A stretch of DNA of 64,000 nt from Photobacterium sanguinicancri. GTDB lineage: Bacteria > Pseudomonadota > Gammaproteobacteria > Enterobacterales > Vibrionaceae. The position numbers and the translations under genes were made by a program. The notes under the pieces are model-generated. The model searched no databases, was not told the DNA's origin, and saw only the letters and a program-made list of their open reading frames with translations. This document shows positions 19,035 to 36,880 of the stretch, piece by piece. The first letter of the stretch is position 1; every line of letters starts with the position of its first letter. The stretch spans positions 496,001-560,000 of the forward strand of contig NZ_AP024851.1 in the NCBI RefSeq assembly GCF_024346675.1. The letters run 5' to 3'.

Positions 19035-19727
19035 CTATTTGAGATCTTGACTAATAATCTGATACAAACGACGTGGTCTGCCGCCAGTATTGTAGTTTAG
19101 CACTAGGCGTATTAAGCCTTCAGACTCTAAGAATTCTAAATAGCGCCTAGCTGTAATTCGGCTTACATTCATTAATTTACCTATTTCATCAGCAGAAAAG
19201 TCATGCAATTTTTTTTGAAGTAGAATTGTTTTTAATGATGCTAGTGTTGTCGCGTCTATCCCTTTTGGCGTTTGCCGTGATTGCTTGGTGGGAACCTTAC
19301 GTAAAATTTGGTCGATCTCACCCTGATCAACAGTAGTGGCACGCGCAAATTGTTGTTTGTATTGCTTGTAATCTTCTAGTGCTTGATTCACACGCGACAT
19401 GCGAATGGGTTTGACTAAGTAGTCAATGACACCGAGTTGAACAGCTCTTTCTACTGTCGTAGTTTCACGCTCAGCTGTTGTCATAATAAAGTCGCATTCT
19501 GCATTTTGTTCGCGAAGCTGGCGGATGACGTCGATGCCATTGCCATCTGGCAAACTGATATCCACAAAGATTAAAGTTGGTTTGTATGTATTATATTGTG
19601 ATAAGGCTTCAGAACAGGTTTCGCTGATCGCGACTACCGTAAAGTCGGGGTGCTGATTAATCGTAGATTCGAGTGTGTAGCTTGCACGAACATCATCTTC
19701 AAGAAGCATTACAGTGATTTTAGTCAT
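19035..19727 (-). CDS. Response regulator, CitB/DcuR family (malate/citrate-type)
   Basis: This 230-aa regulator has an N-terminal receiver domain with phospho-acceptor D56 (LIFVDISLPDGNG) and the switch stretch DYLVKPI. A C-terminal helix-turn-helix (FSADEIGKLMNVSRITARRYLEFLE) is followed by a GGRPRRLY wing. This build is that of CitB, DpiA, DcuR and MaeR, which turn on C4-dicarboxylate or citrate genes. It overlaps the kinase gene by 8 nt, so the two are translated together. The pair faces a 2HCT transporter and malic enzyme, as in the maeKR-maePE arrangement of Lactobacillus casei, so these genes are the likely targets. Confidence 0.9.
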   Translation of the reverse strand: MTKITVMLLEDDVRASYTLESTINQHPDFTVVAISETCSEALSQYNTYKPTLIFVDISLPDGNGIDVIRQLREQNAECDFIMTTAERETTTVERAVQLGVIDYLVKPIRMSRVNQALEDYKQYKQQFARATTVDQGEIDQILRKVPTKQSRQTPKGIDATTLASLKTILLQKKLHDFSADEIGKLMNVSRITARRYLEFLESEGLIRLVLNYNTGGRPRRLYQIISQDLK

Positions 19728-21324
19728 AACGAGCCATTTCTTTTTTATCTAAATAAATACTGAATAGTGTTGTATTTTGTTCTGTACGTTCCCAGTCAAT
19801 ACTTCCCTGAAAGTAATCAACAAGTTGTTTGACAAGATACAAGCCAATACCGCTCTGTTCGTCATGAAGCTTAGAGCTCACACCAAATTCTAAAATATGT
19901 TCGCAAATGTCTTCAGGAACACCCGCTCCGCTATCTTGAATTTCAAAAATGACGTGGTTACTGCGATCGCTCAAATATATATGTATTTCTGGTTCTGCGT
20001 TTTCTCTGTTTTGCCAAGAAGCGAGTAGGGCATTATCAATTAAGTTACCTAGCATAGTGACAAGCTTTTCAGAAATGTTCTTTTCATAGCTTGATAAACT
20101 AGTGTCTACGTCAATCGTATATTTCACTCCAATTTCTGAAGCTTTATTGAATTTTGCGAGCAGCAGGCCTGCAACAGCACTGTCTGTAATAGATAAGACA
20201 ATATTACGGATAACTGATTGGTAACGATCGGTTTCTAGTTGAATAAACTCAATGGCTTCATCGTATTTCTCGATTTGCAGCATACCGGAAATAACGTTGA
20301 GCTTATTGGAGTATTCGTGCGTTTTGCTTCTGAGCAATTCTGTGTAATTTTTGAGGTAAGTAACTTCTCGTTCAAGTTCACTTTGATCAAGGTTTGCAAA
20401 GAATACAATGGCATGACCGAGTAATCCTTTTGGGGTTTGGATTGGGTAGACATTCGCTTTGTATTTTAGCTTCCCTATATTGAATTCTCCCTGATGGAAT
20501 ACGCCTTGGTTTGCTAGAACTAAATGGCTTAATGGCGTGGAATAGCGAGATAAAGGGTGGTTCACATAATCATAACGATCGAGGATACCCATAGAAAGCA
20601 TTTTGATCGCGCTGTTATTGATTGTAGCTATATTCATGTTGCTATCTACAGCTATGATGGCATCACGAATACTGTCTAATACCATTTCATGCTCGCGAAA
20701 CTTATTAACAATAAATTCAGGTTCATAATCTAGAAACGTACGCTTCATTTTGAAGACAAAGGCAATAATAGTGCCTATCCCCAGCAAGTAAACAATACCG
20801 AGAAGCGTACCTATATGGCCATATTGTTGTAATAAAAGAACAGACGTTTTTTCGGATAAATAGCCGATACAAATTGCACCTATTACTTTTTCATTTAAGA
20901 ATATAGGTGAAAAGTTTCGGATTGCTTTACCAAGAGAACCAGATGCAACGCTGCTATATTCTTTGCCTTGCTCTAATGCTTTATAAATATCCTCACCAAT
21001 AAAGTGTTTTCCGACTCTATTAGGATCTGGGTGGCTTAATCGCATTGCATTTTTATCGACGACGACGATAAAGGAGGCGTCTGTACGTGTTCTTATGTCT
21101 TCAATATAGTTTTGTAGGCTGTACGTTTTGTTTTTATTTTTTGCATGAACAGCTTGGATGACAGTGGGGTCATGAGCAATGACGCGTGCAAGTTCTAATC
21201 CTCTTGCTTCAATGCCTTCTTGATGTGAATTTTGCAATAAGAAAAAGATTGCAGTTGTTACAACAATCACAATAGAAGAAGTGGCTGCAACTGTAGTTAA
21301 GGCCAGATAGCTCTTTAGTTTCAT
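19720..21324 (-). CDS. Sensor histidine kinase, CitA/DcuS family
   Basis: This 534-aa membrane kinase has a first transmembrane helix at about 9-31 and a periplasmic PAS-like sensor domain at about 35-165. The family signature DKNAMRLSHPDPNRVGKHF is typical of citrate- or dicarboxylate-binding kinases. A second transmembrane helix follows at about 172-190, then a cytoplasmic PAS domain (about 215-315), the SpoB-like phospho-acceptor segment with THEYSNKLN, and an HATPase domain (NLIDNALLAS, DSGAGVPED, GIGLYLVKQLV). It should sense malate, citrate or fumarate outside the inner membrane. Which ligand it binds cannot be decided by eye. Confidence 0.9.
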   Translation of the reverse strand: MKLKSYLALTTVAATSSIVIVVTTAIFFLLQNSHQEGIEARGLELARVIAHDPTVIQAVHAKNKNKTYSLQNYIEDIRTRTDASFIVVVDKNAMRLSHPDPNRVGKHFIGEDIYKALEQGKEYSSVASGSLGKAIRNFSPIFLNEKVIGAICIGYLSEKTSVLLLQQYGHIGTLLGIVYLLGIGTIIAFVFKMKRTFLDYEPEFIVNKFREHEMVLDSIRDAIIAVDSNMNIATINNSAIKMLSMGILDRYDYVNHPLSRYSTPLSHLVLANQGVFHQGEFNIGKLKYKANVYPIQTPKGLLGHAIVFFANLDQSELEREVTYLKNYTELLRSKTHEYSNKLNVISGMLQIEKYDEAIEFIQLETDRYQSVIRNIVLSITDSAVAGLLLAKFNKASEIGVKYTIDVDTSLSSYEKNISEKLVTMLGNLIDNALLASWQNRENAEPEIHIYLSDRSNHVIFEIQDSGAGVPEDICEHILEFGVSSKLHDEQSGIGLYLVKQLVDYFQGSIDWERTEQNTTLFSIYLDKKEMARYD

Positions 21325-21573
21325 AATAGGCCTTTAGCGTGAACACCTTGGTTAAGGGCAGTATAACGGGCTTTTTATCGTTATTAATATGTGCTACATC
21401 AGAAATTATGATGATCAAGCCCCGTCATATTACTAAACATTCCTATCACATTCCCGCTTACAAAAGTTACAAAAGATAAAGATAGTTACATTAATGATGC
21501 TCTCAATATTTCAACTTGTAAGTGTTGTTAGACTGCAAGCGAATAATAATAACCCTACAAATAAAGGTGAAAT
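21325..21573. promoter_or_regulatory. Divergent promoter region with direct repeats
   Basis: The 249-bp gap between the kinase and transporter genes holds a tandem repeat TTACAAAAG-TTACAAAAG (21458-21475). A related TTACATTAA follows at 21486-21494, 19 nt downstream of the second copy. These are candidate sites for the CitB-type regulator. A weak FNR-like sequence (ATTATGATGATCAA, 21405-21418) has a perfect right half and a degenerate left half. Both are inferences. Confidence 0.45.
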
Positions 21574-22857
21574 ATGTTTACTAATGACGTGATAGATATT
21601 AAAGATAAACGTATGATTAATATAATCTTTGCTTTATCTGCTGCAGTTATCCTTTTTTCAACAATTCAAAATAAAATGCCAACGGGAATCATTGGTGCAA
21701 TTGGTGTCATGGCTGTTGTTGGCTATATATTAAATGTGATAGGCGACAAAACACCGATCGTAAATCAGTTCTTTGGTGGTGGTGCTATTGTTATCATTTT
21801 TGGGTCTTCATACATTTTCCACAGTGGCATTATTCCTCATGAAATAGCGGGTTCGATCACCACGTTTGTAAAGGGTGGGGGCTTTCTTTCTTTTTTCATC
21901 GCCAGCTTGGTAACTGGGTCGATTTTGGGTATGGACACAAACGTACTTAAAAAAGCGGCTTTGAAATATATTCCCGTTATATTTGGCGGTGTTGCATGTG
22001 CATTTTTGTTTGTCGGTATTGTTGGTAGCTTCTTGGGTGAGGGGTTCTTTAATTCGGTTATGCTGATCGCCTTGCCTATTATGGGAGGCGGCATGGGAGC
22101 TGGTGCCGTACCACTTGTCGAAATCATGTCAGGTAACTCCAGTATGTCAGCGGAAATGTTGATGTCGAAAATGGTACCTGCGTTAGCTATTGGTAATGCC
22201 ATCGCTATTGTCATGGCAGGTTTGCTGGACAAACTTGGCAAGTTTTATCCTTCTTTAACGGGTAACGGTAAGTTAATGCGTGATAAAGATGCGCAGCCTG
22301 ATGAACAAACTACAGAGCAAGCTACATCAATTAATGTGTTAGGTATTGGTGCATTACTTGCTATCACTATGTATTTCGTTGGTGCCATTCTGAGTAGCGT
22401 TATTAGTATGCACACTTATGCATTGATGATTATCTTTGTTGCACTTGTAAAAGTAACGGGCTTTATGCCTCGTGAATTAGAAAATGCCGCTCACGCTTGG
22501 TATAAGTTTGTCGTTGATAACTTAACACCAGCGTTATTGGTGGGTATTGGTGTTGCTTATACCGATTTAAACCAAATTATCGCATCTTTGAGTTTGGTGT
22601 ATTTCTTAATGGTATTTGCGACAGTACTTGGTGCCATTGTAGGTACAGCTATTATTGGTCGATTAATGGGTTTCCATCCAATCGAAGCTTCAATTACCGC
22701 TGGGTTATGTATGGCGAATATGGGCGGTACGGGTGATGTTGCCGTACTTGCAGCCAGTAAACGTATGGAGCTAATGCCTTTTGCTCAAATTTCATCTCGA
22801 ATTGGTGGGGCATTTATGTTGATTCTCGCCACTCTTATTCTTGAAATGTTGAAGTAG
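21574..22857 (+). CDS. 2-hydroxycarboxylate (malate/citrate) transporter, 2HCT family
   Basis: This 427-aa inner-membrane carrier has two homologous halves. Each half has the re-entrant loop motif of the family: GGGMGAGAVP near residue 170 and ANMGGTGDVAVL near 390. 2HCT proteins (CitS, MaeN, CimH, MaeP, MleP) move malate or citrate with Na+ or H+, or in exchange for lactate. It is followed by malic enzyme 9 nt later and faces a CitAB-like two-component system, so malate is the most likely substrate. Sodium coupling would fit the NQR genes downstream, but is not proven by sequence. Confidence 0.9.
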   Translation: MFTNDVIDIKDKRMINIIFALSAAVILFSTIQNKMPTGIIGAIGVMAVVGYILNVIGDKTPIVNQFFGGGAIVIIFGSSYIFHSGIIPHEIAGSITTFVKGGGFLSFFIASLVTGSILGMDTNVLKKAALKYIPVIFGGVACAFLFVGIVGSFLGEGFFNSVMLIALPIMGGGMGAGAVPLVEIMSGNSSMSAEMLMSKMVPALAIGNAIAIVMAGLLDKLGKFYPSLTGNGKLMRDKDAQPDEQTTEQATSINVLGIGALLAITMYFVGAILSSVISMHTYALMIIFVALVKVTGFMPRELENAAHAWYKFVVDNLTPALLVGIGVAYTDLNQIIASLSLVYFLMVFATVLGAIVGTAIIGRLMGFHPIEASITAGLCMANMGGTGDVAVLAASKRMELMPFAQISSRIGGAFMLILATLILEMLK

Positions 22858-22866
22858 GATAAGACC

Positions 22867-24453
22867 ATGTCATATATACAACCACACTTAAGTGAAAATA
22901 AAGTCTCTACTAATTATGCTACGCAACATGTGTCACTGGGTAATATTACTAATCAGACGACACAAATTCGTTTTTCAATTGATGTTGCAGGTAATGATTT
23001 ATCAAAATATCTGATGTTAAGGCATGTTCAAGACCAAAATGAGCGTCTGTTTTACCATTATATTCGTAATAATATAAAAGACAGCTTACCGTATATTTAT
23101 ACACCTTCTGTTGGTGATGCATGTGAAAAATACAGTTATCTAAATTTCGCTCCACGCGGGTTGTATTTTTCTTATCGTGGTGATGAAGATGTGAAAGCAA
23201 CGATTGCTAGTATTTCTAATGATATTGATGTGATTGTAGTCACCGACGGGTCCCGAGTGTTGGGGTTGGGCGACCTAGGCATAGGTGGTATGGGGATCTC
23301 GATTGGTAAACTTTCGCTATATACCGCGGTAGGAGGTATTCCTCCAGAACGTACATTACCTGTGTGTATTGATGTGGGCACCAATAATGCCCGCCTCAAG
23401 CAAGATCCCCAGTATTTAGGCGATAAGGAGGATCGCCTTGATGATGAGACTTTCTATAACTATCTTGATGAAATTATGCAGGCTCTTGTCGTTAAGTGGC
23501 CAAAAGCAATTATTCAGTTTGAAGACTTTAGCAATAACCATGCTTACCCCTTGTTAGAAAAATACCGCAATCAATACCGTTGTTTTAATGATGATATTCA
23601 AGGTACAGCTACCGTGAGTGCTGCAACGATTAAGCGGGCGTTACTCAAAGCTGGAAAGGAGCCATCGACATCGCGAGTTTTTGTGGTTGGAGGAGGCTCT
23701 GCAGGTTGTGGCATTGCCCAGTTAATTAAAGATAGTTTTCAGTTTGATAGCAGCCATGGTGTTTGCATTGTCGATCAAGAAGGCCTGTTATTTGATGATT
23801 CTAATGAACTTTCAATTATGCAGAAAAGCCTTGCCCGTCCTTTTTATGAGCGACCATCCGGTAAGTCGACATTGAGTTTGATTGAGGCGATTGAATATTA
23901 CCAACCAGATGTGCTGATTGGTGTTACTGGTGTCGCTGGCTTGTTTACTGAAGAAATCATTAAAGCCTTGGCGAAGCACACCCAAACCCCAATCATAATG
24001 CCATTGTCTAATCCTATTAGCGCTTGTGAAGTAACGCCACAACAAGTTTATGACTGGATTGGCAATGATGTCATTGTCACTACAGGTAGCCCTTTTGCGC
24101 CCGTCCAGTATGACAATCAGAGTTACACCATTTCTCAGTGCAACAATGTGTATGTTTTTCCTGGTATTGGTCTGGGAGCCAAAGTGGCCAGTGCTAAGTC
24201 AGTTTCAAATGGCATGTTATTAAAAGCTGTTGATGCATTAGCAACATTTGAATGTACACGTTGTTCCGACAATGAAGTGTTACCGGCAATTGAGTCCACG
24301 CTAGATGTATCAAAGTCGATTGCGATTGCTGTTGCAAAACAGGCGATGAAAGAAGGCTTATCAGATGTAATGAGGTTGTCTGATGATGCTGATATTACCG
24401 CAATGATTGAACATGCTTTCTGGAATCCTGAGGTTGATAAGGCAAGCCGATAA
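22867..24453 (+). CDS. NAD-type malic enzyme
   Basis: This 528-aa enzyme decarboxylates malate to pyruvate with reduction of NAD(P). Motifs include SLPYIYTPSVGDAC with the catalytic-region tyrosine, the long RVLGLGDLGIGGMGIS segment, the metal-site region QFEDFSNNHAYPLL, RCFNDDIQGTA and the dinucleotide motif GGGSAGCGIA. The large (>500 aa) MaeA/ScfA-like form, rather than the MaeB or short Gram-positive form, suggests NAD as cofactor. Its codons are less optimised than those of the frd genes that follow. It forms a two-gene unit with the 2HCT carrier. Confidence 0.92.
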   Translation: MSYIQPHLSENKVSTNYATQHVSLGNITNQTTQIRFSIDVAGNDLSKYLMLRHVQDQNERLFYHYIRNNIKDSLPYIYTPSVGDACEKYSYLNFAPRGLYFSYRGDEDVKATIASISNDIDVIVVTDGSRVLGLGDLGIGGMGISIGKLSLYTAVGGIPPERTLPVCIDVGTNNARLKQDPQYLGDKEDRLDDETFYNYLDEIMQALVVKWPKAIIQFEDFSNNHAYPLLEKYRNQYRCFNDDIQGTATVSAATIKRALLKAGKEPSTSRVFVVGGGSAGCGIAQLIKDSFQFDSSHGVCIVDQEGLLFDDSNELSIMQKSLARPFYERPSGKSTLSLIEAIEYYQPDVLIGVTGVAGLFTEEIIKALAKHTQTPIIMPLSNPISACEVTPQQVYDWIGNDVIVTTGSPFAPVQYDNQSYTISQCNNVYVFPGIGLGAKVASAKSVSNGMLLKAVDALATFECTRCSDNEVLPAIESTLDVSKSIAIAVAKQAMKEGLSDVMRLSDDADITAMIEHAFWNPEVDKASR

Positions 24454-24504
24454 CAGGGGGTTATTTAAGCCGGAACTCAATACACATTTAAGCAGAAGCT
24501 GTAA

Positions 24505-24530
24505 AGCCGGTTGGAATAATGCCGGCTCAT
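24505..24530 (+). terminator. Weak hairpin between malic enzyme and frdA
   Basis: A 6-bp G/C-rich stem (AGCCGG/CCGGCT, 24505-24510 with 24522-24527), plus one G-T pair, is followed by a poor T tract. It may partly separate the mae and frd transcripts. Confidence 0.4.
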
Positions 24531-24592
24531 ACTTTCACAACAAAAATTCAAGCACTTTTTATTTATACCTTATTGCTTATCGGAGGATAGCT

Positions 24593-26407
24593 GTGAAAAT
24601 TATTACTACAGATATTGCTGTAATCGGTGCAGGTGGCGCAGGCCTACGTGCTGCCATCGCTGCTGCAGAAGCAAACCCAGACTTAGAGATCTCGCTGATT
24701 TCTAAAGTTTACCCAATGCGCTCACACACAGTAGCTGCAGAAGGTGGCTCCGCTGCCGTCATCAAGGATGAGGATAGCTTAGACAATCACTTCAACGATA
24801 CCGTTGGTGGTGGCGACTGGCTATGTGAACAGGACGTTGTTGAATATTTCGTAGAAAACGCGACTCGCGAGATGACCCAACTAGAACAATGGGGTTGTCC
24901 TTGGAGCCGTAAAGAAAACGGTGACGTGAATGTTCGTCGTTTTGGTGGCATGAAAGTTGAGCGTACATGGTTCGCAGCCGACAAAACTGGCTTCCACATG
25001 CTACACACGCTATTCCAAACTTCTATCAAGTACACGCAAATCAACCGCTTTGATGAATACTTTGTGGTTGACCTTCTAGTAGAAGATGGCGAAGTACAAG
25101 GTCTAGTTGCTATTCACATGGCTGAAGGCGAACTGATCTGTATTAAAGCGAAATCTGTTGTACTTGCAACAGGTGGTGCTGGCCGCGTTTACAACTGTAA
25201 TACCAATGGCGGTATCGTAACAGGTGATGGTATGGCTATGGCGTTCCGCCACGGTGTACCACTACGTGATATGGAATTCGTTCAGTACCACCCAACGGGC
25301 CTTCCAGGTACCGGTATCCTGATGACCGAAGGTTGTCGTGGTGAAGGCGGTATCATGCTGAACAAAAATGGCTACCGTTACCTGCAAGACTACGGCATGG
25401 GCCCTGAGACACCAATCGGCCAGCCAAAAAACAAATACATGGAACTGGGTCCACGTGACAAAGTTTCTCAAGCGTTCTGGCACGAGCTACAAAAAGGCAA
25501 CACCATCAAACACCCACTGGGCGATGTTGTTCACCTTGACTTGCGCCACCTAGGTAAAGAATACCTACACGAGCGTCTACCATTCATCTGTGAGCTTTCA
25601 AAAGCCTACGTAAACGTTGACCCTGCGGAAGAGCCAATTCCAATTCGTCCAACCGTTCACTACACCATGGGTGGTATCGAAACAGACAAGAACAATGAAA
25701 CACGCATCAAAGGCCTATACGCTGTTGGTGAATGTTCATCTGTTGGTCTTCACGGTGCAAACCGTCTTGGTTCAAACTCACTAGCAGAGCTTGTTGTATT
25801 CGGTCGCCTAGCGGGCGAAGGTGCAGCAAAACGCGCAGCTGAGTTTACAGGCTGGAACGACGATGCTATCGCTCAACAAGTAGCGGCTGTTCAAGCTCGT
25901 ATCGATACACTTCTTTCTCAAGAAGGTGACGAGAACTGGGCTGATATCCGTACTGAAATGGGTCACTCCATGGAAGCGGGTTGTGGTATCTACCGCCAAG
26001 AAGATCTAATGCAAGCGACTGTCGACAAACTTGCCGAGCTTCGTGAGCGTTACAAGAAAATCAGCATTAAAGACAAAGGCAAAGTATTCAACACTGATTT
26101 GCTATACGCAATAGAAGTGGGTTACGGCCTTGAAGTTGCAGAAACAATGGCTCACTCAGCGATTCTTCGCCGCGAGTCACGTGGTGCACACCAACGTCTA
26201 GATGACAACTGCACAGAACGTGATGACGTGAACTTCCTGAAACACTCGCTAGCATTCTACAACGGTGATAAAGCACCTCGTATTGAATACAGCGACGTGA
26301 AAATCACTAAGTCTCAGCCAAAAGCACGTCTATACGGTGCAGCGGCAGAAGAAGCAGCGGCGGCGGAAGCAGCAGCTGAAGCGAAGAAAGCAGAGGAGCA
26401 GGCATAA
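24593..26407 (+). CDS. frdA: Fumarate reductase flavoprotein subunit
   Basis: This 604-aa subunit reduces fumarate to succinate at a covalently bound FAD. The FAD-linking histidine falls at residue 45 ([14 protein letters not shown]), as in E. coli, when translation begins at the GTG at 24593. The dinucleotide motif is [13 protein letters not shown]; the active-site region [11 protein letters not shown] and the Arg-rich [12 protein letters not shown] are kept. A longer frame runs back to 24407, but it overlaps the malic enzyme gene. GGAGGA at 24582-24587 decides for the GTG. Codon use is strongly optimised, which implies high expression. It is the first gene of frdABCD. Confidence 0.96.
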
Positions 26408-27147
26408 TGTCAGGCAATCGTATCCAAAAAGTTGAAATCCTGCGTTATGACCCAGCAAAAGACGCAGAACCGTACTTCGAAATGTTTGAAGTACCGTTTA
26501 ACGAAACTATGTCTGTGCTTGATGCACTGGGTTACATCAAAGATAACCTAGACAAAGATCTCGCTTACCGTTGGTCTTGCCGTATGGCGATCTGTGGTTC
26601 TTGCGGCATGATGGTTAACAAGGTACCAAAACTGGCTTGTAAAACTTTCTTGCGTGATTACCCGAATGGTCTAAAAATCGAAGCACTGTCTAACTTTGCT
26701 ATCGAGAAAGACTTAATTGTTGATATGACGCCGTTCATCGAACGTCTAGAAGCAATCAAGCCTTACATCATTGGTAACGATCGTACACCAGAAGATGGCC
26801 CGAACAACCAAACACCAGAGCAAATGGCAAAATACAAGCAATTTGCTGGCTGTATCAACTGTGGTCTTTGCTACGCAGCATGTCCTCAGTTTGGTTTGAA
26901 CCCAGAGTTCATTGGTCCTGCGGCGCTAACACTGGCACACCGTTACAACCTAGATAGCCGTGACAACGGCGCGGATGAGCGTATGAAGCTTATCAACGGC
27001 GAAAATGGCGCTTGGGGTTGTACGTTTGTGGGTTACTGTTCTGAAGTTTGTCCGAAGAGCGTTGATCCAGCGGCAGCAGTTAACCAAGGCAAAGTAGAAT
27101 CTTCTAAAGATTTCGTTATTGCCATGATTAAGCCTCAGGAGGCATAA
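26407..27147 (+). CDS. frdB: Fumarate reductase iron-sulfur subunit
   Basis: This 246-aa subunit carries electrons from the membrane quinol to FrdA. It has the [2Fe-2S] cysteines in [10 protein letters not shown] and LACKTF, and two ferredoxin-like groups ([13 protein letters not shown] and [13 protein letters not shown]) for the [4Fe-4S] and [3Fe-4S] clusters. Its ATG overlaps the frdA stop codon by one base, a sign of coupled translation in the FrdABCD complex. Confidence 0.96.
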
Positions 27148-27149
27148 GG

Positions 27150-27533
27150 ATGAGCAACCGTAAACCTTACGTTCGTGAAATGACACGTACATGGTGGAAA
27201 GATCACCCTTTCTACCGCTTCTACATGGTTCGTGAAGCAACAATTTTACCTTTAATTTTCTTCACTATCTGCCTGACTTTCGGTCTAGGTAGCCTAGTGA
27301 AAGGCCCTGAAGCATGGGCGACTTGGTTAAGCTTTATGGCGAATCCAGTTGTTGTTGTGTTGAACATTCTTGCTCTAGCGGGCAGCCTGTTCCACGCACA
27401 AACATTCTTCAGCATGATGCCTCAAGTAATGCCGATTAAGATCAAAGGCAAAGCACTTGATAAGAAAATTGTTGTGCTAGCACAGTGGGCCGCTGTTGCA
27501 GCTATCTCACTATTCGTTCTAGTACTAGTTTAA
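27150..27533 (+). CDS. frdC: Fumarate reductase membrane anchor subunit C
   Basis: This 127-aa membrane protein has three transmembrane segments and the FrdC start pattern [12 protein letters not shown] and a conserved Glu in [10 protein letters not shown]. With FrdD it anchors the catalytic subunits to the inner membrane and forms the menaquinol site. It starts two bases after frdB. Confidence 0.94.
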
Positions 27534-27543
27534 GGAGAACCAC

Positions 27544-27909
27544 GTGGTCAATCTAAATCCTAAACGTTCTGACGAGCCAGTATGGTGGGGTCTGTTCGGT
27601 GCTGGTGGTACTTGGTTCGCAATGCTAACACCAGTAACAGTACTTGTGCTTGGTATCATGGTACCGCTGGGCATGATCGATGCTGAAGCAATGAGCTACG
27701 AGCGTGTAACAGGCTTTGTAACGAGCATCATTGGTGCGCTATTCACTATCGCGACATTAGCACTACCAATGTGGCATGCAATGCACCGTTTACACCACGG
27801 TATGCATGACCTTAAATTCCACACAGGCGTTGCTGGTAAAATTGCGTGTTACGCAACAGCATTCCTAGTGTCGGCGCTGGCTGTTATTTTCATTATTCTC
27901 ATTATTTAG
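27544..27909 (+). CDS. frdD: Fumarate reductase membrane anchor subunit D
   Basis: This 121-aa membrane protein has three transmembrane helices. The start [18 protein letters not shown] and the motif [14 protein letters not shown] match FrdD closely. It begins with a GTG preceded by AAGGAG (27533-27538). It closes the frdABCD operon ahead of a terminator. Confidence 0.94.
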
Positions 27910-27919
27910 GTAAATCGTT

Positions 27920-27952
27920 TGGCTATCCGCCCTGGGTAGCCATGTCGTTATT
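27920..27952 (+). terminator. Terminator after frdABCD
   Basis: A 9-bp stem with one G-U pair (27920-27928 with 27934-27942) has a 5-nt loop and is followed by TGTCGTTATT. It separates frd from the dcuB gene. Confidence 0.65.
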
Positions 27953-27985
27953 CAACGAATAAGTGTTTCAATATAAGGGTTAAAA

Positions 27986-29308
27986 ATGTTTTATGTTCAT
28001 ATGATGCTACTGCTTGCCGTAATATTCATTGGTATTCGGCATGGTGGAATTGCGTTTGGTCTTTTAGGTGGTTTAGGCGTTTCTGTATTAGCCTTTGTGT
28101 TTGGCGTGACACCCGGAACGCCGCCTATTAGCGTAATGCTAATTATTTTGGCTGTGGTTGCAGCTTCTGCGACTTTAGAGGCAACAGGAGGACTTAAATT
28201 ACTTGTTAAATATGCAGAAAAAGTATTGCGTAAACATCCAAATAAGATTGTCTTTCTTGGGCCGCTGAGTACTTATTCATTAACGGTTCTTGTGGGGACT
28301 GGTCACTCTGTTTACCCACTTCTTCCTGTTATTTATGATGTGGCCTATAAAAAAGGTATTCGTCCTGAGCGTCCAATGGCGATGGCGTCAGTCGCGTCAC
28401 AAATGGGTATAACGGCCAGCCCAATTGCGGCTGCGGCGGCAGTGGTGATGGCGACAGCCGTTGATAATAATCTTGATGTTGGTTTGTTAGATGTACTGAT
28501 GGTGACGATCCCTGCAACATTAACGGGTTTACTTGTTGCTTGTACTTGGAGTTTAAATAGAGGGAAAGATCTGGATAAAGATCCTGAATTTAAAGCTCGT
28601 TGTGAAGATGAAGAATTCCGTAAAGAGTTACTCGATACCAGCGCGGAAACACAAGAAGGTTCAACAGAAGATAAGAAAGCTAAAACTGGACTGACTGTTT
28701 TTGTGTTGGGTATTGCGTCAGTTATTTTTGTAGCCATGTTTGGAAAGGGACTCGGTTTATTACCTGATGGCGTCAAAATGTCTGTAGCAATACAGTTTCT
28801 AATGTTGTCTGTCGGTGCGATAATTTTATTAACAACAAAAGTTCAGCCCAAGAAAATTGTAACTAGCAATGTGTTTATTGCGGGTATGACAGCGGTTGTT
28901 ATTATTTTTGGTATCGCTTGGATGAGTGACACGATTATTAGTTTCCATAAACCATATTTAATTAGTATGGTCAGCGATATTGTTAATGTTCACCCATGGA
29001 CTTTTGCTATTGCGATGTTTGTTGTTTCAGTTTTTCTGAAAAGTCAGGCCGCAGTTCTTACGATTATGTTACCTCTTGGTTTTTCTCTTGGGATCCCCGC
29101 AGAAGTTATTATTGGTGTATTACCAGCATGTTATGCATATTTCTTCTTTCCTTTTTATCCTAGTGACCTTGCTGCAATTACATTTGACCGCTCTGGCACG
29201 ACCCGAATTGGGAAATATATACTAAATCATAGCTTTATTATTCCTGGTTTCATTGGTGTAACAACTGCAACCGTTGTCGGCTATTTTTTGTCGATGGCAA
29301 TTAATTAA
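27986..29308 (+). CDS. dcuB: Anaerobic C4-dicarboxylate transporter, DcuB type
   Basis: This 440-aa inner-membrane carrier exchanges fumarate, malate or aspartate for succinate during fumarate respiration. It follows DcuB along its whole length: AVVAASATLEATGG, VGTGHSVYPLLPVIYDVA, GIRPERPMA, and the C-terminal FPFYPSDLAAITFDRSGTTRIG with the NHSFIIPG end. It lies between frdD and the fumarase gene, which is the functional order of the pathway. The fumB-dcuB pairing of E. coli is similar. Its codons are less optimised than those of frd. Confidence 0.92.
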   Translation: MFYVHMMLLLAVIFIGIRHGGIAFGLLGGLGVSVLAFVFGVTPGTPPISVMLIILAVVAASATLEATGGLKLLVKYAEKVLRKHPNKIVFLGPLSTYSLTVLVGTGHSVYPLLPVIYDVAYKKGIRPERPMAMASVASQMGITASPIAAAAAVVMATAVDNNLDVGLLDVLMVTIPATLTGLLVACTWSLNRGKDLDKDPEFKARCEDEEFRKELLDTSAETQEGSTEDKKAKTGLTVFVLGIASVIFVAMFGKGLGLLPDGVKMSVAIQFLMLSVGAIILLTTKVQPKKIVTSNVFIAGMTAVVIIFGIAWMSDTIISFHKPYLISMVSDIVNVHPWTFAIAMFVVSVFLKSQAAVLTIMLPLGFSLGIPAEVIIGVLPACYAYFFFPFYPSDLAAITFDRSGTTRIGKYILNHSFIIPGFIGVTTATVVGYFLSMAIN

Positions 29309-29318
29309 CGCACGATAA

Positions 29319-29343
29319 TTATGTTGTTGAAATAACAACATAA
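29319..29343 (+). terminator. A/T-rich hairpin after dcuB
   Basis: A perfect 10-bp stem (TTATGTTGTT, 29319-29328, with 29334-29343) has a 5-nt loop. It has few G-C pairs and only CTTT after it, so it may be a weak terminator or an RNA-stabilising end. Confidence 0.4.
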
Positions 29344-29370
29344 CTTTACACAACATCCGTAAATAATATT

Positions 29371-29410
29371 AATGACACCTATCATAGTGGGGCATTGACT
29401 GGGTGTCATT
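29371..29410 (+). promoter_or_regulatory. Inverted repeat in the fumarase leader
   Basis: AATGACACC (29371-29379) pairs perfectly with GGTGTCATT (29402-29410) across a 22-nt loop. The repeat ends 24 nt before the start codon. It could be an operator or an RNA structure in the leader. No T run follows, so it is not a standard terminator. Confidence 0.45.
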
Positions 29411-29434
29411 TAATAAAAACAAATAACGAGGGTA

Positions 29435-30946
29435 ATGATGACAGTTATTAAAAAGCACGATGTAATTGAGAGTGTTGCCGATGCATTACAATATATCTCA
29501 TATTATCACCCTTTGGACTTTGTACAGGCTTTAGAAAAAGCCTATAACAAGGAACAAAGCGCTGCGGCCAAAGATGCCATTGCACAGATCTTGATTAACT
29601 CACGCATGTCGGCAGAAGGTCGCCGTCCAATTTGTCAGGATACGGGGATTGTGACCTGTTTCGTGAAGATCGGTATGGATATACAGTGGGACAGTGATTT
29701 GACTGTTCAAGAAATGATAGATGAAGGTGTCCGCCGCGCCTATACCAATCTGGATAATCCGCTGCGAGCTTCCGTGGTAGCAGATCCTGCGGGCTTACGA
29801 AGTAACACGAAAGATAATGCACCTGCTGTTGTTCATATAGAAATGGTGCCAGGCAACAAGCTTGATATTCAGATTGCAGCCAAAGGTGGCGGCTCTGAAA
29901 ATAAAACGAAAATGGTGATGCTCAATCCTTCCGATGACGTTGCAGAGTGGGTTGAAAAAACGGTTCCCTTGATGGGGGCAGGCTGGTGTCCTCCGGGCAT
30001 GCTAGGCATAGGTATTGGTGGTACAGCTGAAAAAGCGGCCGTGTTAGCCAAAGAATCCTTGATGGAATCTATAGATATTCATGAGCTTGAGGAACGAGGC
30101 GCTCAAAATGCTGAAGAAGCCTTACGGCTAGATATTTATAACCGAGTTAATCAACTGGGTATTGGGGCGCAGGGGCTGGGTGGTTTGACAACGGTTGTTG
30201 ATGTCAAAATTAAAACAGCGCCAACCCATGCGGCCTCCAAGCCTGTATGTATGATCCCTAATTGTGCTGCAACCCGCCATGTTCACTTCACATTAGATGG
30301 TACAGGGCCTGCTAAATTGACGCCACCTAAGCTAGATGATTGGCCAGAAGTTACGTGGGAAGTTGGGGAGAATACGCGTCGTGTGAATGTCGATGAAATC
30401 ACTAAGAGTGATGTTCAAGAATGGAAATCAGGCGAGACAGTATTACTGTCGGGTAAAATCTTGACGGGGCGTGATGCGGCGCATAAACGTATTCAAGACA
30501 TGTTGGCGAGAGGGGAAGATTTTCCTGTTAATTTTAATAATCGCTTTATTTACTTTGTTGGCCCTGTGGATGCGGTGGGCGATGAAGCTGTAGGTCCTGC
30601 GGGTCCAACCACATCAACACGTATGGATAAATTTACAGAGATGATGCTTGGTCAGGCTGGTCTAACTGGCATGATTGGCAAAGCCGAACGTGGGCCAATG
30701 GCGATAGAGTCAATTAAAAAGCACAAAGCTGTGTATCTGATGGCTGTGGGTGGCGCTGCTTACCTTGTAGCCAAAGCGATAAAGAGTGCGCGTGTTGTCG
30801 CATTTGCTGATTTGGGCATGGAGGCGATTTATGAATTTGAGGTCGAAAATATGCCTGTCACAGTTGCTGTTGATGCTGAAGGTGTGAATGCGCACCAAAC
30901 GGGCCCTGATACTTGGAAGATTAAAATAGCAGAAATGGAAGCGTAA
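29435..30946 (+). CDS. Fumarate hydratase, class I (iron-sulfur)
   Basis: This 503-aa enzyme interconverts malate and fumarate with a [4Fe-4S] cluster. Cluster and active-site segments are visible: RRPICQDTGIVTCF, GAGWCPPGMLGIGIGGT, KPVCMIPNCAATRH and the C-terminal GPVDAVGDEAVGPAGPTTSTRMD. It fuses the alpha and beta parts as in FumA/FumB, and is about 45 residues shorter than the E. coli enzymes, as I recall for other marine homologues. ATG-ATG at 29435-29440 makes the first codon uncertain by one. It probably makes fumarate from imported malate for FrdABCD. The nqrA gene begins about 31 nt after its stop. Confidence 0.93.
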   Translation: MMTVIKKHDVIESVADALQYISYYHPLDFVQALEKAYNKEQSAAAKDAIAQILINSRMSAEGRRPICQDTGIVTCFVKIGMDIQWDSDLTVQEMIDEGVRRAYTNLDNPLRASVVADPAGLRSNTKDNAPAVVHIEMVPGNKLDIQIAAKGGGSENKTKMVMLNPSDDVAEWVEKTVPLMGAGWCPPGMLGIGIGGTAEKAAVLAKESLMESIDIHELEERGAQNAEEALRLDIYNRVNQLGIGAQGLGGLTTVVDVKIKTAPTHAASKPVCMIPNCAATRHVHFTLDGTGPAKLTPPKLDDWPEVTWEVGENTRRVNVDEITKSDVQEWKSGETVLLSGKILTGRDAAHKRIQDMLARGEDFPVNFNNRFIYFVGPVDAVGDEAVGPAGPTTSTRMDKFTEMMLGQAGLTGMIGKAERGPMAIESIKKHKAVYLMAVGGAAYLVAKAIKSARVVAFADLGMEAIYEFEVENMPVTVAVDAEGVNAHQTGPDTWKIKIAEMEA

Positions 30947-30977
30947 TCCTTAACAAGGTCTATGTTGTGAAGTGCGT

Positions 30978-32318
30978 ATGATTACAATAAAAAAGGGTCT
31001 GGATATCCCAATTTCAGGGACTCCTACCCAGGCGATAAATGATGGTAATGCCATCACACGTGTTGCCTTGCTTGGCGAAGAATATGTTGGTATGCGTCCT
31101 ACCATGCATACCCGCGTAGGGGATGTAGTGAAGAAAGGTCAGGTTCTTTTTGAAGATAAAAAGAATCCTGGCGTTAAATTCACTGCTCCAGCCGCTGGTA
31201 AGGTTACTGAGATTAATCGTGGTGCTAAACGTGTTCTACAATCGGTTGTTATCGATGTAGAAGGCAACGAGCAAATCACATACAACCGCTATACCGCTGA
31301 TCAACTAGCACAACTCGATCGTGATGTTGTGGTTGAACAGTTAGTTGAATCTGGCATGTGGACAGCGCTTCGTACCCGTCCATTCAGCAAGGTGCCGGCT
31401 ATTGATTCAGAAACAAAGGCTATCTTTGTTACTGCAATTGATACCAATCCTCTAGCTGCAAGCCCTGAGCTAATCATCAACGAACAAAGCGATGCGTTTG
31501 TTGCTGGTCTAACTCTACTTTCTCGCTTAACTAGCGGCAAAGTCATGGTTTGTAAAGCAGGTTCGAGCTTACCGCGTAGTTCTGAAGCTAACATTGAAGA
31601 ACACGTATTCAACGGTCCACACCCTGCTGGCCTAGTTGGTACTCACATCCACAAACTATTCGGTGCTGATGCAGCGAATGTTGCGTGGCACATTAACTAC
31701 CAAGACGTTATTGCGTTCGGTCAGCTTTTCTTAACAGGTGAGCTATACACTGATCGCGTTGTTGCCCTTGGTGGTCCTGTTGTGAACAACCCACGTCTTG
31801 TGCGTACTCAAATCGGTGCTTCTATTGAGCAGCTAACTGATTCTGAGATGATGCCAGGTCAAATTCGTGTGCTTTCAGGCTCTGTTCTGAACGCGACGAA
31901 AGCGGTTGGTCCACTGGCTTACCTTGGTCGTTACCACCTTCAAGTAACGGCGCTTCGTGAAGGCTATGAGAAAGAATTCTTAGGCTGGATCGCACCAGGT
32001 AAAAACAAATTCTCTGTAACGCGTTCGTTCTTGAGCCAATTCTTCCCTGGTCAGTTGTTTAACATGACAACCACGACTAACGGTAGTGAGCGTTCAATGG
32101 TGCCAATTGGTAACTACGAAAAAGTAATGCCACTAGACATCGAACCAACACTGTTACTTCGTGACCTTTGTGCTGGTGATAGCGATAGCGCGCAACTACT
32201 GGGTGCGCTTGAGTTAGATGAAGAAGATCTGGCTCTATGTACGTATGTATGCCCAGGTAAGTATGAGTTTGGTCCATTGCTACGTGAGTGCTTGGACAAA
32301 ATTGAGAAGGAAGGGTAA
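30978..32318 (+). CDS. nqrA: Na+-translocating NADH:quinone reductase subunit A
   Basis: This 446-aa subunit belongs to the six-subunit sodium pump that oxidises NADH and reduces ubiquinone. It matches Vibrio NqrA throughout: [70 protein letters not shown] two codons upstream (30972) is possible, but ATG-ATT-ACA is the family start. The gap to the fumarase stop is about 31 nt, and I see neither a terminator nor a clear promoter in it. Codons become highly optimised along the gene. Confidence 0.96.
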
Positions 32319-32321
32319 TTC

Positions 32322-33566
32322 ATGGGTCTCAAGAATTTCCTCGAAGATGTTGAACATCACTTTGAACCTGGTGGTAAACACGAAAGATGGTTTGCGCTTT
32401 ACGAAGCATTCGCCACTCTTATGTACACTCCAGGCCAAGTGACGCGTACTGGTTCACACGTTCGCGATAGTATTGACCTTAAACGTATCATGATCATGGT
32501 ATGGTTTGCGGTATTCCCAGCAATGTTCTGGGGCATGTTCAATACGGGTCATCAAGCAATCACTGCACTAAACCACATGTACGTTGGTGAACAACTGGCG
32601 ACTGTACTTGCAGGCGATTGGCACTACTGGCTAACGCAAATGTTAGGCGGCACACTCACAGCTGATGCTGGGTGGGGTAGCAAAATGCTACTCGGTGCGA
32701 CTTACTTCCTCCCTATCTACGCAGTGGTATTTGCTGTAGGTGGTTTCTGGGAAGTGCTTTTCTGTATGGTGCGTAAGCATGAAGTTAACGAAGGTTTCTT
32801 TGTAACTTCTATCTTGTTCGCATTGATCGTTCCAGCAACACTTCCACTTTGGCAAGCTGCACTAGGTATTACCTTTGGTGTTGTTGTTGCGAAAGAGATC
32901 TTTGGTGGTACTGGTCGTAACTTCCTTAACCCTGCGCTTGCAGGTCGTGCCTTCCTGTTCTTCGCATACCCAGCTCAGATCTCTGGTGATCTAGTATGGA
33001 CTGCGGCTGACGGTTTCTCAGGTGCAACTGCGCTAAGCCAGTGGGCTAACGGTGGTCAAGCTTCTGTACTGAATACAGTGACAGGCGAAGCGATCACTTG
33101 GATGGACGCGTTTATCGGTCGTATTCCAGGCTCTATCGGTGAAGTTTCTACACTCGCTATCATTCTTGGTGGCGCAATGATCGTTTACATGGGCATCGCT
33201 TCATGGCGCATCATCGCGGGTACTATGATTGGTATGGTTGCAGCAGCGACTCTGTTTAACATCGTTGGTTCTGACACCAATGCAATGTTCAGCATGCCAT
33301 GGCACTGGCACCTAGTTCTAGGTGGTTTTGCATTCGGTATGATGTTCATGGCAACTGACCCTGTATCAGCGGCATTTACCAATAAAGGTAAGTGGTGGTA
33401 CGGTGCGTTAATTGGTGCAATGGCAGTGATGATTCGTGTAGTTAACCCAGCTTACCCTGAGGGTATGATGCTGGCGATTCTATTCGCGAACCTCTTCGCG
33501 CCTCTATTTGACAACCTAGTTGTTCAGGGCAACATCAAACGGAGACTAGCTCGCCATGGCAAGTAA
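32322..33566 (+). CDS. nqrB: Na+-NQR subunit B
   Basis: This 414-aa membrane subunit carries covalently bound FMN on a threonine in the S-G-A-T motif. Here the motif is at residues 233-236, so T236 matches the known residue in Vibrio cholerae NqrB. About ten hydrophobic segments are present. It starts 3 nt after nqrA and overlaps nqrC by 11 nt. Confidence 0.96.
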
Positions 33567-34350
33567 TAACGATAGCATTAAAAAAACGCTGATTGTTGTT
33601 GTCGCGCTGAGCCTAGTCTGCTCGATCGTGGTATCAACTGCAGCTGTTGCACTGCGTCCTCTACAGCAAAAAAATGCGGTAGAAGATGTTCAGCGTAACA
33701 TCTTGTCTGTTGCTGGCCTGCTTGACGGTGCTGCAAACATTCAAGAAGCATACGGTCAGTTCATCGAGCCTAAGCTTGTTGACTTAAACACTGGCGAGTT
33801 TGTTGATCAAACTGAAGCGGGTCAAACACCTGCACAGTACAACCAACGTTCAGCTGCGAAAGATCCAGCACAATCTGTGAAGCTAAACGCTGAGCAAGAT
33901 CTGGCTAAGATCATTCGTCGTGCAAACGTGGCGACTGTTTACCTCGTTAAAGACGCGAACGATAACATCGAGAAACTGATCCTACCGGTTCACGGTAACG
34001 GTCTGTGGTCTATGATGTACGCATTCGTTGCGGTTGAGACTGATGGTAATACTGTTTCTGGTATCACTTACTACCAGCAGGGTGAAACCCCTGGACTGGG
34101 TGGTGAAATCGAAAACCCGAACTGGCGTGCACAGTTTGAAGGTAAGAAACTGTTTGATGACAACAACCAACCTGCTATTCGCGTAGTGAAAGGTGGTGCA
34201 ACCCCTGGTGATATCCACGGTGTTGACGGTCTTTCTGGTGCGACGCTAACTGGTAACGGTGTACAACACACCTTCGATTTCTGGTTAGGCGACATGGGCT
34301 TCGGTCCTTTCCTAGCTAAGGTTCGTAAGGGAGGCCTGAACAATGGCTGA
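33556..34350 (+). CDS. nqrC: Na+-NQR subunit C
   Basis: This 264-aa subunit has one N-terminal transmembrane helix (about 11-33) and a periplasmic FMN-binding domain. The covalent FMN site is the S-G-A-T motif at residues 227-230 (T230). The FMN is attached by the ApbE transferase, whose gene is not in this window. It overlaps nqrD by 8 nt. Confidence 0.96.
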
Positions 34351-34975
34351 TGCTAAAGAAATGAAAAAGATCTTGTTTGCGCCGTTTCTCGACAACAACC
34401 CGATCGCGCTTCAGGTTCTTGGTGTATGTTCTGCACTAGCGGTTACTACGAAACTAGAAACAGCGTTTGTAATGACGCTAGCGGTAACGTTTGTTACAGC
34501 ATTTTCTAACTTTTTCGTATCGTTAGTTCGTAACCATATTCCTAACAGTGTACGTATCATCGCGCAGATGGCGATCATTGCATCACTAGTAATCTTGGTT
34601 GACCAAGTACTAAAAGCATTTGTTTACGATATTTCTAAACAGCTTTCTGTATTCGTTGGCCTGATCATTACTAACTGTATCGTAATGGGTCGTGCTGAAG
34701 CATACGCAATGAAGTCTGCACCACTACCGTCGCTTATTGATGGTATTGGTAACGGTCTTGGTTACGGTTTCGTACTAATCACTGTTGGCTTCTTCCGTGA
34801 ACTACTAGGTTCAGGTAAGTTATTTGGCATCGAGGTTCTACCTCTAGTATCTGACGGCGGTTGGTACCAACCAAACGGCATGATGCTACTCGCGCCATCA
34901 GCTTTCTTCCTGATCGGTTTCATGATCTGGGCTATCCGTATTATTCGTCCAGAACAAGTAGAAGCGAAGGAGTAA
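34343..34975 (+). CDS. nqrD: Na+-NQR subunit D
   Basis: This 210-aa membrane subunit has six transmembrane segments and the NqrDE/RnfAE motifs, including [13 protein letters not shown], whose cysteine helps hold the intramembrane iron-sulfur centre together with NqrE. The [13 protein letters not shown] segment is typical. Confidence 0.96.
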
Positions 34976-34982
34976 GGGGAAC

Positions 34983-35579
34983 ATGGAACATTATCTAAGC
35001 CTTTTAGTTCGTTCGATTTTTATCGAGAACATGGCACTTTCGTTCTTCTTAGGTATGTGTACATTCCTTGCGGTATCTAAGAAAGTAAAAACCTCTTTTG
35101 GTCTGGGTGTTGCGGTAATCGTTGTACTAACGATTGCGGTACCTGTAAACAACCTTGTTTACAACCTACTACTAAAAGATGGTGCGATTGTTGAAGGTGT
35201 GGACTTAAGCTTCCTTAACTTCATCACGTTTATCGGTGTAATTGCAGCACTTGTTCAGATTCTAGAAATGATTCTGGACCGCTTCTTCCCACCGCTATAC
35301 AACGCACTTGGTATTTTCCTTCCGCTGATCACAGTTAACTGTGCAATCTTCGGTGGTGTATCTTTCATGGTACAACGTGACTACAACTTCCTTGAGTCTG
35401 TAGTGTACGGTTTCGGTTCAGGCACCGGTTGGATGCTTGCAATCGTAGCCCTAGCGGGTATTCGTGAAAAGATGAAGTACTCAGACGTACCTCCGGGTTT
35501 ACGTGGTTTGGGTATTACATTCATCACTGTTGGTCTTATGGCGTTAGGCTTTATGTCTTTCTCTGGCGTACAGCTGTAA
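34983..35579 (+). CDS. nqrE: Na+-NQR subunit E
   Basis: This 198-aa membrane subunit is homologous to NqrD in inverted topology. The cysteine in the early [12 protein letters not shown] segment and the one in [13 protein letters not shown] match the conserved iron-site residues of the family. It lies 8 nt after nqrD. Confidence 0.96.
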
Positions 35580-35600
35580 TCAGGATAATAGGAATAGTCA

Positions 35601-36824
35601 ATGGATATTATTCTTGGCGTAGTCATGTTCACTCTGATTATCCTGGCTCTAGTTTTAGTGATTCTTTTCGCTAAATCTAAGCTAGTACCATCAGGCGACA
35701 TTACTATCTCAGTAAACAACGATCCGGAAAAAGCGATTACAACCGCTGCCGGTAGTAAACTACTTAATGCTCTTTCAGCAAGTGGTATCTTCGTTTCTTC
35801 TGCTTGTGGTGGCGGTGGCTCTTGTGGCCAGTGTCGCGTTAAAGTGAAATCGGGTGGTGGTGACATCTTACCGACTGAACTTGACCACATCACAAAAGGT
35901 GAAGCACGTGAAGGCGAGCGTCTAGCATGTCAGGTTAACGTTAAATCTGATATGAACATCGAGCTTCCAGAAGAAATCTTTGGTGTTAAGAAGTGGGAAT
36001 GTGAAGTTCTTTCGAATGACAACGAAGCAACGTTCATCAAAGAACTCGTGCTTAAAATCCCAGAAGGCGAGGAAGTTCCTTTCCGTGCGGGTGGTTACAT
36101 TCAGATTGAAGCTGAACCGCATCACATCAAATACGCTGACTTCGATGTTCCTGAGGAATACCGTGGTGATTGGGACAAGTTCAACCTGTTCCGTTACGAG
36201 TCAGTTGTTAAAGAGCACTCAATCCGTGCTTACTCTATGGCGTCATACCCAGAAGAGAAAGGCCTGATTAAGCTTAACGTGCGTATCGCAACGCCGCCGC
36301 CAAACAACCCAGATGTACCACCAGGTGTGATGTCTTCATACATTTGGTCTCTGAAGTCTGGCGATACATGTACTATTTCTGGTCCTTTCGGTGAGTTTTT
36401 CGCGAAAGAAACGGATAACGAAATGGTATTCATCGGTGGTGGTGCTGGTATGGCACCTATGCGTTCACACATCTTCGACCAGCTTCTACGTCTTAAATCT
36501 AAGCGTAAGATGACTTACTGGTACGGTGCTCGCTCTAAGCGTGAAATGTTCTACATTGAAGATTTCGATACGCTAGCTGCGGACAACGAGAACTTCGAGT
36601 GGCATGTTGCACTGTCTGATCCTTCTCCAGAAGATAACTGGGATGGTTACACAGGCTTCATCCACAACGTGATCTACGAGAACTACTTGAAAGATCACGA
36701 AGCACCAGAAGACTGTGAATACTACATGTGTGGTCCACCAATGATGAATGCCGCTGTTATCGGCATGCTGAAAGATCTTGGTGTAGAAGACGAAAACATC
36801 CTTCTGGATGACTTCGGTGGCTAA
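35601..36824 (+). CDS. nqrF: Na+-NQR subunit F (NADH dehydrogenase subunit)
   Basis: This 407-aa subunit accepts electrons from NADH. One N-terminal transmembrane helix is followed by a [2Fe-2S] ferredoxin domain with C69, C75, C78 and C110, an FAD domain (RAYSMASYP) and an NADH domain ([19 protein letters not shown]). It ends in the conserved LLDDFGG. It is the last gene of the operon; no apbE or nqrM follows before the terminator. Confidence 0.97.
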
Positions 36825-36848
36825 TTAGCCCTTCGAGCACAATACATT

Positions 36849-36880
36849 GGCTGACCCTGTTAAGGGGCAGCCTTTTTTCA
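36849..36880 (+). terminator. Intrinsic terminator of the nqr operon
   Basis: The stem GGCTG-A-CCCT / AGGG-G-CAGCC (36849-36858 with 36863-36872) has one mismatch and a GTTA loop and is followed by six T. Confidence 0.88.

Follow-up and report, generated by a model that had tools for sequence, protein, structure and literature searches.

The locus examined here raises the question of why a bacterium with intact operons for fumarate reductase (frdABCD) and for the Na+-pumping NADH:quinone oxidoreductase (nqrABCDEF) on one chromosome should carry both again on the other. The present study analyzes a window of 64,000 nucleotides, the whole stretch of DNA that was read, which is part of the second chromosome (contig 2, approximately 1.85 Mb) of Photobacterium sanguinicancri, in a genome of 5.55 Mb assembled as two contigs. 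Within the window an island of about 18 kb (18465-36911, borders approximate, no strand assigned) holds a two-component regulator pair, a 2HCT carrier, a malic enzyme, frdABCD, dcuB, a class I fumarase, and nqrABCDEF side by side, as the original prediction had it, and open frames and profile matches agree with every gene that it named, with all frames open. Our analysis suggests that the island is probably a laterally variable composite malate-respiration operon, seemingly suited to anaerobic growth on malate, with frd and nqr genes that have been converted with those of chromosome 1 and with regulation as the main difference between the two sets.

Second copies and gene conversion

The frd and nqr genes of the island are both second copies and the chromosome 1 operons are intact, and the suggestion that the cluster was a rearranged home of these genes therefore has to be given up. 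Besides the copies in the window, the genome has NqrA at C1:2817933-2819276 and full-length FrdA at C1:3402017, which makes two of each. Window 24556-27890 has 99.5% DNA identity with chromosome 1 frd, and window 30962-36896 has 99.8% with chromosome 1 nqr, both matches having sharp ends. The FrdA copies differ by one residue, FrdB and FrdC by none, and FrdD at the C-terminus, while the NqrA copies differ by three residues and NqrB to NqrF by none. The expectation that frd lies beside epmA with nqr elsewhere does hold for the chromosome 1 copies of this genome, in which frd adjoins epmA with efp farther on, and the island copies are extra. Behind chromosome 1 nqr there are an apbE-like gene (below the PRK10461 cut-off) and nqrM, neither of which follows the island nqr, and the island NQR must therefore borrow such maturation factors. 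In Vibrio cholerae both genes lie downstream of nqr and are co-transcribed with it (PMC12174285), a feature of the operon and not part of the NQR enzyme itself. As assembled, the window's genome is the only one of 36 genus genomes (its own included) with two full copies of frdA and nqrA, the other 35 having at most one full copy of each.

Differences between the copies were clustered at the edges. The frd copies differ at 16 columns (one a gap) in 3335 bp, located at 24562-24616 (12), 25054-25312 (3), and 27837 (1), with a mismatch-free conversion tract of 2524 bp at 25313-27836 (+ strand), and the nqr copies differ at 13 columns (one a gap) in 5936 bp, located at 30966-31856 (7) and 36856-36887 (6), with a mismatch-free tract of 4999 bp at 31857-36855 (+ strand); for each module such a run appeared in 0 of 20,000 random placements. 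The within-genome identities are higher than the 98.8% for frd and 99.1% for nqr found when chromosome 1 copies were compared between the species' two genomes. In 5 of the 16 columns that differ in frd, the island has the base of the P. chitinilyticum island, shared at one of them by the chromosomal copy of G070, a genome labelled as the same species; the remaining columns comprise 10 private to the island copy and 1 change on chromosome 1. The direction of conversion was likely from chromosome 1 to the island, because the interior resembles chromosome 1 copies of kin that have no island. The fumarase paralogue on chromosome 1 (C1:1274608), with 79% DNA and 91% protein identity, has not been homogenised.

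Similar patterns were found in other hosts. A frdA tree (1368 nt, 29 rows) paired the window's two copies (100/97) and also the V. cincinnatiensis copies (100/100). In the same tree, from which the chromosomal copies of P. frigidiphilum and P. chitinilyticum themselves are absent, the P. frigidiphilum island copy grouped with chromosomal copies of its near relatives and the P. chitinilyticum island copy sat beside that of genome G016. A single frdA clade was rejected by the approximately unbiased (AU) test both for the four islands of the window, V. cincinnatiensis, P. frigidiphilum, and P. chitinilyticum (p-AU 6.5e-101) and for the three Photobacterium islands (p-AU 4.0e-05). The nqrA tree paired the window copies (98/89), with G070 almost as near. 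In V. cincinnatiensis the frdA copies have 6 differences in 1368 coding nt, with unrelated upstream regions, and the copies at the nqr end have 1 difference in 365; the P. frigidiphilum frd copies have 5 in 289, and those of Vibrio sp. MEBiC08052 are diverged over frdA with 3 differences in a 1.5 kb stretch downstream. Identity greater within the genome than between strains, a sharp-edged mosaic, and an older, shared gene order together point to gene conversion with the host chromosome 1 operons as the source of the likeness of the frd and nqr modules, apparently recurring in several lineages.

Extent of the island and empty sites

Although the predicted extent of 19035-36824 does contain the genes, the island is somewhat wider, from approximately 18465 to 36896-36912. 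The left border was read by eye against a relative, the BLAST match ending at 18361, and the right border, placed by comparison with relatives, and the end of the nqr repeat are approximately 16 bp apart. The corresponding site is empty both in G070 and in G023, the closest two-contig relative judged by NqrA and FrdA proteins. In the latter (C2), window 18361 is joined to 36914 with 142 bp between, and in G070 window 16882 is joined to 36912 with 183 bp between, phr being gone too; genome search found one frdA, one nqrA, and no such carrier in G070. The genes bordering the island are different in the window, P. frigidiphilum, V. cincinnatiensis, and P. alginatilyticum, and those on its left side in P. 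alginatilyticum and P. chitinilyticum, being of similar lengths, may be the same. An empty site in close relatives together with other sites in other hosts is consistent with a laterally variable island. An ancestral island and two deletions could also explain the empty sites, but more events would be needed. The GC fraction of the kinase, dcuB, carrier, and malic enzyme genes is 0.38-0.41 versus 0.425 for the window, a difference that is not decisive.

Three observations concern the borders and neighbours. A DASH cryptochrome gene left of the island (window 17004-18323) is missing at the matching site of G070, a tRNA-Ser(tga) gene adjoins the island end in P. frigidiphilum (L237:11757-11847), and two tRNA-Val genes precede the carrier in V. 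cincinnatiensis (L240:4623-4794).

Occurrence and gene order in other genomes

Comparison of gene order across the genus, which had been proposed as a check, showed that the order is not universal: in addition to the empty site in G023, a search of 52 Photobacterium genomes found the carrier at no less than 82% identity in 13, and malic enzyme was near it in 3 of these 13, counting only neighbours within 1.5 kb on either side of the carrier. In P. chitinilyticum the genes between the response regulator and the start of nqrA, at which point the contig ends, are arranged as in the window, and one alignment spans window 19057 to 31205 with 81% identity, the intergenic junctions aligning at 60-80%. 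In P. alginatilyticum and in P. frigidiphilum the order is split over two contigs, one with frdD-dcuB-fum-nqrA and the other with regulator-kinase-carrier-malic enzyme-frdA; counting these, four Photobacterium species have frdD, dcuB, fum, and nqrA in direct succession. The contigs of P. alginatilyticum and P. frigidiphilum end inside frd and nqr and all four module ends have two different flanks, as is expected of long near-identical repeats; paired module ends were 96-100% identical over 127-337 bp.

V. cincinnatiensis has the carrier, malic enzyme, and frdA contiguous and, on another contig, nqrF followed by kinase and regulator genes, with two flanks at the frd start and the nqr end and one at each of the other two module ends. 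Malic enzyme at 67-71% identity occurred in 5 of 227 genomes of the V. cincinnatiensis genus, and the four besides V. cincinnatiensis itself have carrier, malic enzyme, and regulators together with one frd and one nqr. At L324:461-4479 of V. cincinnatiensis the regulator pair, inverted, comes after the nqrF end, and next to it is a gene for cytochrome bd oxidase subunit I.

Genes of the island

Profile searches used NCBIfam and Pfam models, NCBIfam with curated cut-offs. On the - strand are a response regulator of the DcuR/DpiA family (19035-19727; NCBIfam DcuR 130 bits, cut-off 262), 83-84% identical in amino acids in the islands of P. alginatilyticum, P. chitinilyticum, and P. frigidiphilum, and a sensor kinase of the DcuS/MalK/CitA family (19720-21324; PRK11086 336 bits, cut-off 520) with a Cache sensor domain (sCache_3_2). 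Both are closest to DcuSR/CitAB family models, yet under the curated cut-offs. All other genes lie on the + strand, beginning with the 2HCT carrier (21574-22857; Pfam 2HCT 487 bits), which is probably a Na+/malate carrier. It matches CitS structures, but among the citrate-coordinating residues of SeCitS (Asn186, Arg402, Ser405, Arg428, Tyr348; PMC4718727), alignment showed Asn186 and Arg402 replaced by Met and Ser405 by Thr, with Arg428 and Tyr348 kept, and the score against the CitS model (375 bits) was below the cut-off of 600. These findings speak against citrate as the substrate. Malate is suggested instead by the carrier residues, the malic enzyme, and the regulator family.

The malic enzyme (22867-24453) exceeds the PRK13529 cut-off (563 bits over 326) and falls below that of the malolactic-enzyme model (392 bits, cut-off 850). 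It is followed by the second frdABCD (24593-27909, with a GTG start codon at 24593), all four subunits of which exceed the curated NCBIfam cut-offs, as a quinol:fumarate reductase should, and by a DcuB-type C4-dicarboxylate carrier (27986-29308; PRK12489 607 bits over 396). The Fe-S (class I type) fumarase (29435-30946) is a fused short form of 503 aa that matches Pfam Fumerase and Fumerase_C and passes the TIGR00722 and TIGR00723 cut-offs, and FumA models were not passed by this shorter fused type. Its stop codon is 25 bp upstream of nqrA in the second nqrABCDEF (30972-36824), where all six subunits exceed NCBIfam cut-offs. Downstream of nqrF lies nemA on the opposite strand.

Candidate operator and transcription signals

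A conserved operator candidate at 21460-21494 (+ strand; core 21466-21491), in which GTTACA is repeated 19 bp apart, ends 79 bp before the carrier start codon. The 35-base pattern, with two two-fold positions, matched at 16 of 328 loci, representing 8 species and including all five composite hosts. Allowing up to 3 mismatches, the 26-base core has a single match in the window (chance 0.00), and it was the best match upstream of the carrier in 15 of 15 Vibrionaceae loci compared (0-6 mismatches), one of which, from V. injensis, was already among the 8 pattern species. Best matches to the core had 8-9 mismatches in three Shewanella/Marinomonas loci, one of them at the corresponding place, and 9-10 at the chromosomal frd, nqr, and fum loci of the window genome.

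The island frd has none of the chromosomal frd upstream region. Using general consensus strings, we found a perfect CRP match in the upstream region of chromosome 1 frd and none at up to 2 mismatches in the four island intergenic regions scanned. Promoter-like sites numbered 27 versus 35.9 expected, and terminator-like sites 19 versus 17.3. Two hairpins lie between frdD and dcuB (window 27910-27985); folded sequences from P. chitinilyticum and P. alginatilyticum, like that of the window, have hairpins after frdD, the P. frigidiphilum fold being different. Judged by eye, the stem of the first of the two window hairpins is preserved in P. chitinilyticum with changes on each of its sides, and this hairpin is possibly an attenuator or processing site.

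Proposed physiology and alternative explanations

The proposal that the genes form a joint functional unit gains from the recurrence of the order in at least three other Photobacterium and, in outline, V. cincinnatiensis, and from the conserved operator; the part that couples NADH oxidation by NQR to fumarate reduction goes further and is offered as a model drawn from gene content. Under this model the DcuSR-like two-component system would sense a C4-dicarboxylate and act at the conserved site before the carrier, where it may direct co-expression of the genes that follow. Malate would be taken up along two routes, through the 2HCT carrier, probably together with Na+, and through DcuB, which would exchange it for succinate. 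Malic enzyme would decarboxylate part of it to pyruvate with formation of NADH, and fumarase would dehydrate the other part to fumarate. Electrons from NADH would reach quinone through NQR, with export of Na+, and the quinol would serve FrdABCD in reducing fumarate to succinate, such that one malate is oxidised per malate reduced and the exported Na+ can drive further malate uptake. Gene conversion would keep the island Frd and NQR enzymes near-identical to the housekeeping ones, and since the enzymes are nearly equal, the gain is most simply one of control or dosage.

An alternative explanation, which we judge unlikely, is that the genes share a locus and malate control, with NQR serving oxygen respiration of malic-enzyme NADH and Frd and DcuB carrying out fumarate respiration with other donors, and with no NADH-to-fumarate coupling. 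This would suit an island NQR nearly identical to the housekeeping enzyme, and candidate Fnr and ArcA sites have been reported for Vibrionaceae chromosomal nqr (PMC1805755), where our own scan, again with general consensus strings, detected no Fnr match at up to 2 mismatches upstream of nqr or frd and weak ArcA matches, one of them at chromosomal nqr. It does not account for the contiguity of frdD, dcuB, fum, and nqrA in four Photobacterium species or for the 25 bp between fum and nqrA. It is rather improbable that the pathway runs in reverse as an anaerobic redox sink, in which pyruvate and CO2 would be converted to malate, fumarate, and succinate, with NADH consumed at malic enzyme and NQR and succinate exported, even though malic enzyme and fumarase are generally known to be reversible and DcuB can export succinate. 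The first gene is a 2HCT carrier, the regulator is a two-component system of the C4-dicarboxylate type, and in lactic acid bacteria the same combination, encoded by maeKR-maePE loci, serves to break down malate (PMC5457438). We are more doubtful still that the copies are neutral or dosage-only passengers whose genes do not act together, as could be argued from the absence of the island in most relatives examined, including the same-species genome; intact frames throughout, a gene order kept at differing chromosomal sites, and a conserved operator speak against it. Assembly of the cluster in this strain, by fresh duplication of chromosome 1 frd and nqr into a malate locus, would fit the near identity of the copies (99.5% for frd and 99.8% for nqr) and the single full copies in the other 35 genus genomes as assembled, but is hardly credible and largely refuted, because the same order with alignable junctions occurs in other species, the differences are clustered at the edges instead of being spread, and in the drafts of P. 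alginatilyticum and P. frigidiphilum the contigs end at the modules, each of which has two flanks.

Several observations weigh against a laterally variable operon whose frd and nqr genes are converted and whose regulation is its own. In the frdA tree the island copy of V. ruber is paired with that of MEBiC08052, neither of them joining the host copies, and over the same 1.5 kb that is nearly uniform in MEBiC08052 the V. ruber frd copies have 43 differences, a weak mosaic only. The P. chitinilyticum island frd is only 89.5% like chromosomal frd, measured against that of a close relative and not its own copy, and there was therefore no recent conversion there. Long identical interiors in P. alginatilyticum and P. 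frigidiphilum are presumed from contig breaks, and the dcuB-fum part was not found in V. cincinnatiensis. Unlike chromosomal nqr, the island region between kinase and carrier has weak Fnr-like sites, two palindromes at 2 mismatches (4 strand hits versus 0.58 expected), and the hairpins after frdD may end transcripts before dcuB, with partial read-through. As to lateral entry, profiles of 20 window proteins revealed no integrase or transposase, and clear end repeats were likewise not seen, the longest direct repeat common to both end regions being 9 bp and away from the borders. Carrier and kinase trees did not separate the island from the P. frigidiphilum/indicum/profundum group (p-AU 0.18 and 0.35), and the case for lateral entry therefore rests on the empty sites and differing flanks.

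Two vehicles for the island were considered and rejected. For an integrative mobile element there was no integrase in the profiled proteins, including ten from the neighbourhoods in other hosts, nor were there clear end repeats, and the left flank is single copy in the genome. For plasmid carriage, 145 plasmid records matched the island malic enzyme, all at less than 60% identity.

Relation to known systems

In helminth mitochondria malate is dismutated, part being oxidised and part reduced to succinate via quinone. That dismutation is generally known to use complex I and rhodoquinone, compared with Na+-NQR and a bacterial quinol in the island scheme. The left half of the island resembles the maeKR-maePE loci of Lactobacillales, which comprise a citrate-family two-component system, a malate carrier, and a malic enzyme (PMC5457438), in that here too a two-component system like the citrate family, with kinase and regulator below cut-offs, diverges from carrier and malic enzyme genes. 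The available sections of that report name four genes and no fumarase, Dcu, Frd, or NQR, and give the MaeR site as TTATT(A/T)AA repeats, as opposed to the GTTACA repeats at the island site. In Prevotella, NQR is coupled to fumarate reductase in a supercomplex (SNFR) demonstrated biochemically, linking a Na+ gradient to succinate formation (PMC8516057). Both systems contain NQR and fumarate reductase, and the island, known from gene linkage, adds malate genes and second copies. Compared with the canonical Vibrionaceae operons, frdABCD beside epmA and nqrABCDEF-apbE-nqrM, the island encodes near-identical proteins in another gene cluster, without apbE, nqrM, or the chromosomal upstream regions. 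Concerted evolution of duplicated genes by conversion has been described for rRNA operons and for mtrA of methanogens (PMC6002687, PMC4632066), and the island differs in involving two respiratory complexes and two chromosomes, with a variable island as one partner. With its left half and its proposed NQR-fumarate coupling each having such precedents, the composite itself appears undescribed in the open literature among the titles and abstract openings listed. The available sections of a paper on nqr evolution (PMC4014512) contain neither "two copies" nor "copies of" and do not name Photobacterium.

The loci of V. ruber and Vibrio sp. MEBiC08052, arranged as 2HCT-frdABCD-dcuB-HK-RR (histidine kinase and response regulator), share with the island an extra frd, a carrier, dcuB, and the same kind of regulator, and their frd is mosaic with chromosomal frd, clearly in MEBiC08052 and weakly in V. 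ruber; unlike in the island, malic enzyme, fumarase, and nqr were not found there. The MEBiC08052 island frdB aligns as two pieces in different frames and looks frameshifted (L244:7134-7851).

Transferred operons with whole membrane complexes risk a clash with host subunits and maturation factors. Conversion appears to rewrite the island frd and nqr to the host sequence while the island control region is kept, and this may be a testable case in which the gain is regulatory context and not protein. For marine gammaproteobacteria the island is also a candidate for Na+-coupled malate dismutation encoded at a single locus. More speculatively, and with less confidence than in the reading given at the outset, the island could be a portable operon carrying regulation instead of new enzymes, with its second Na+-NQR and fumarate reductase placed under a malate switch, cross-chromosome conversion re-fitting them to the complexes and maturation factors of the host, converted modules serving as homology arms for gain and loss, and an SNFR-like NQR-Frd unit present in a gammaproteobacterium. 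A practical caution is that in draft genomes such second copies may go unnoticed, showing up as contig breaks. In another genome, G086 (matched to Vibrio salinus), there are two full frdA and a third in broken pieces (C9:1111808-1113504).

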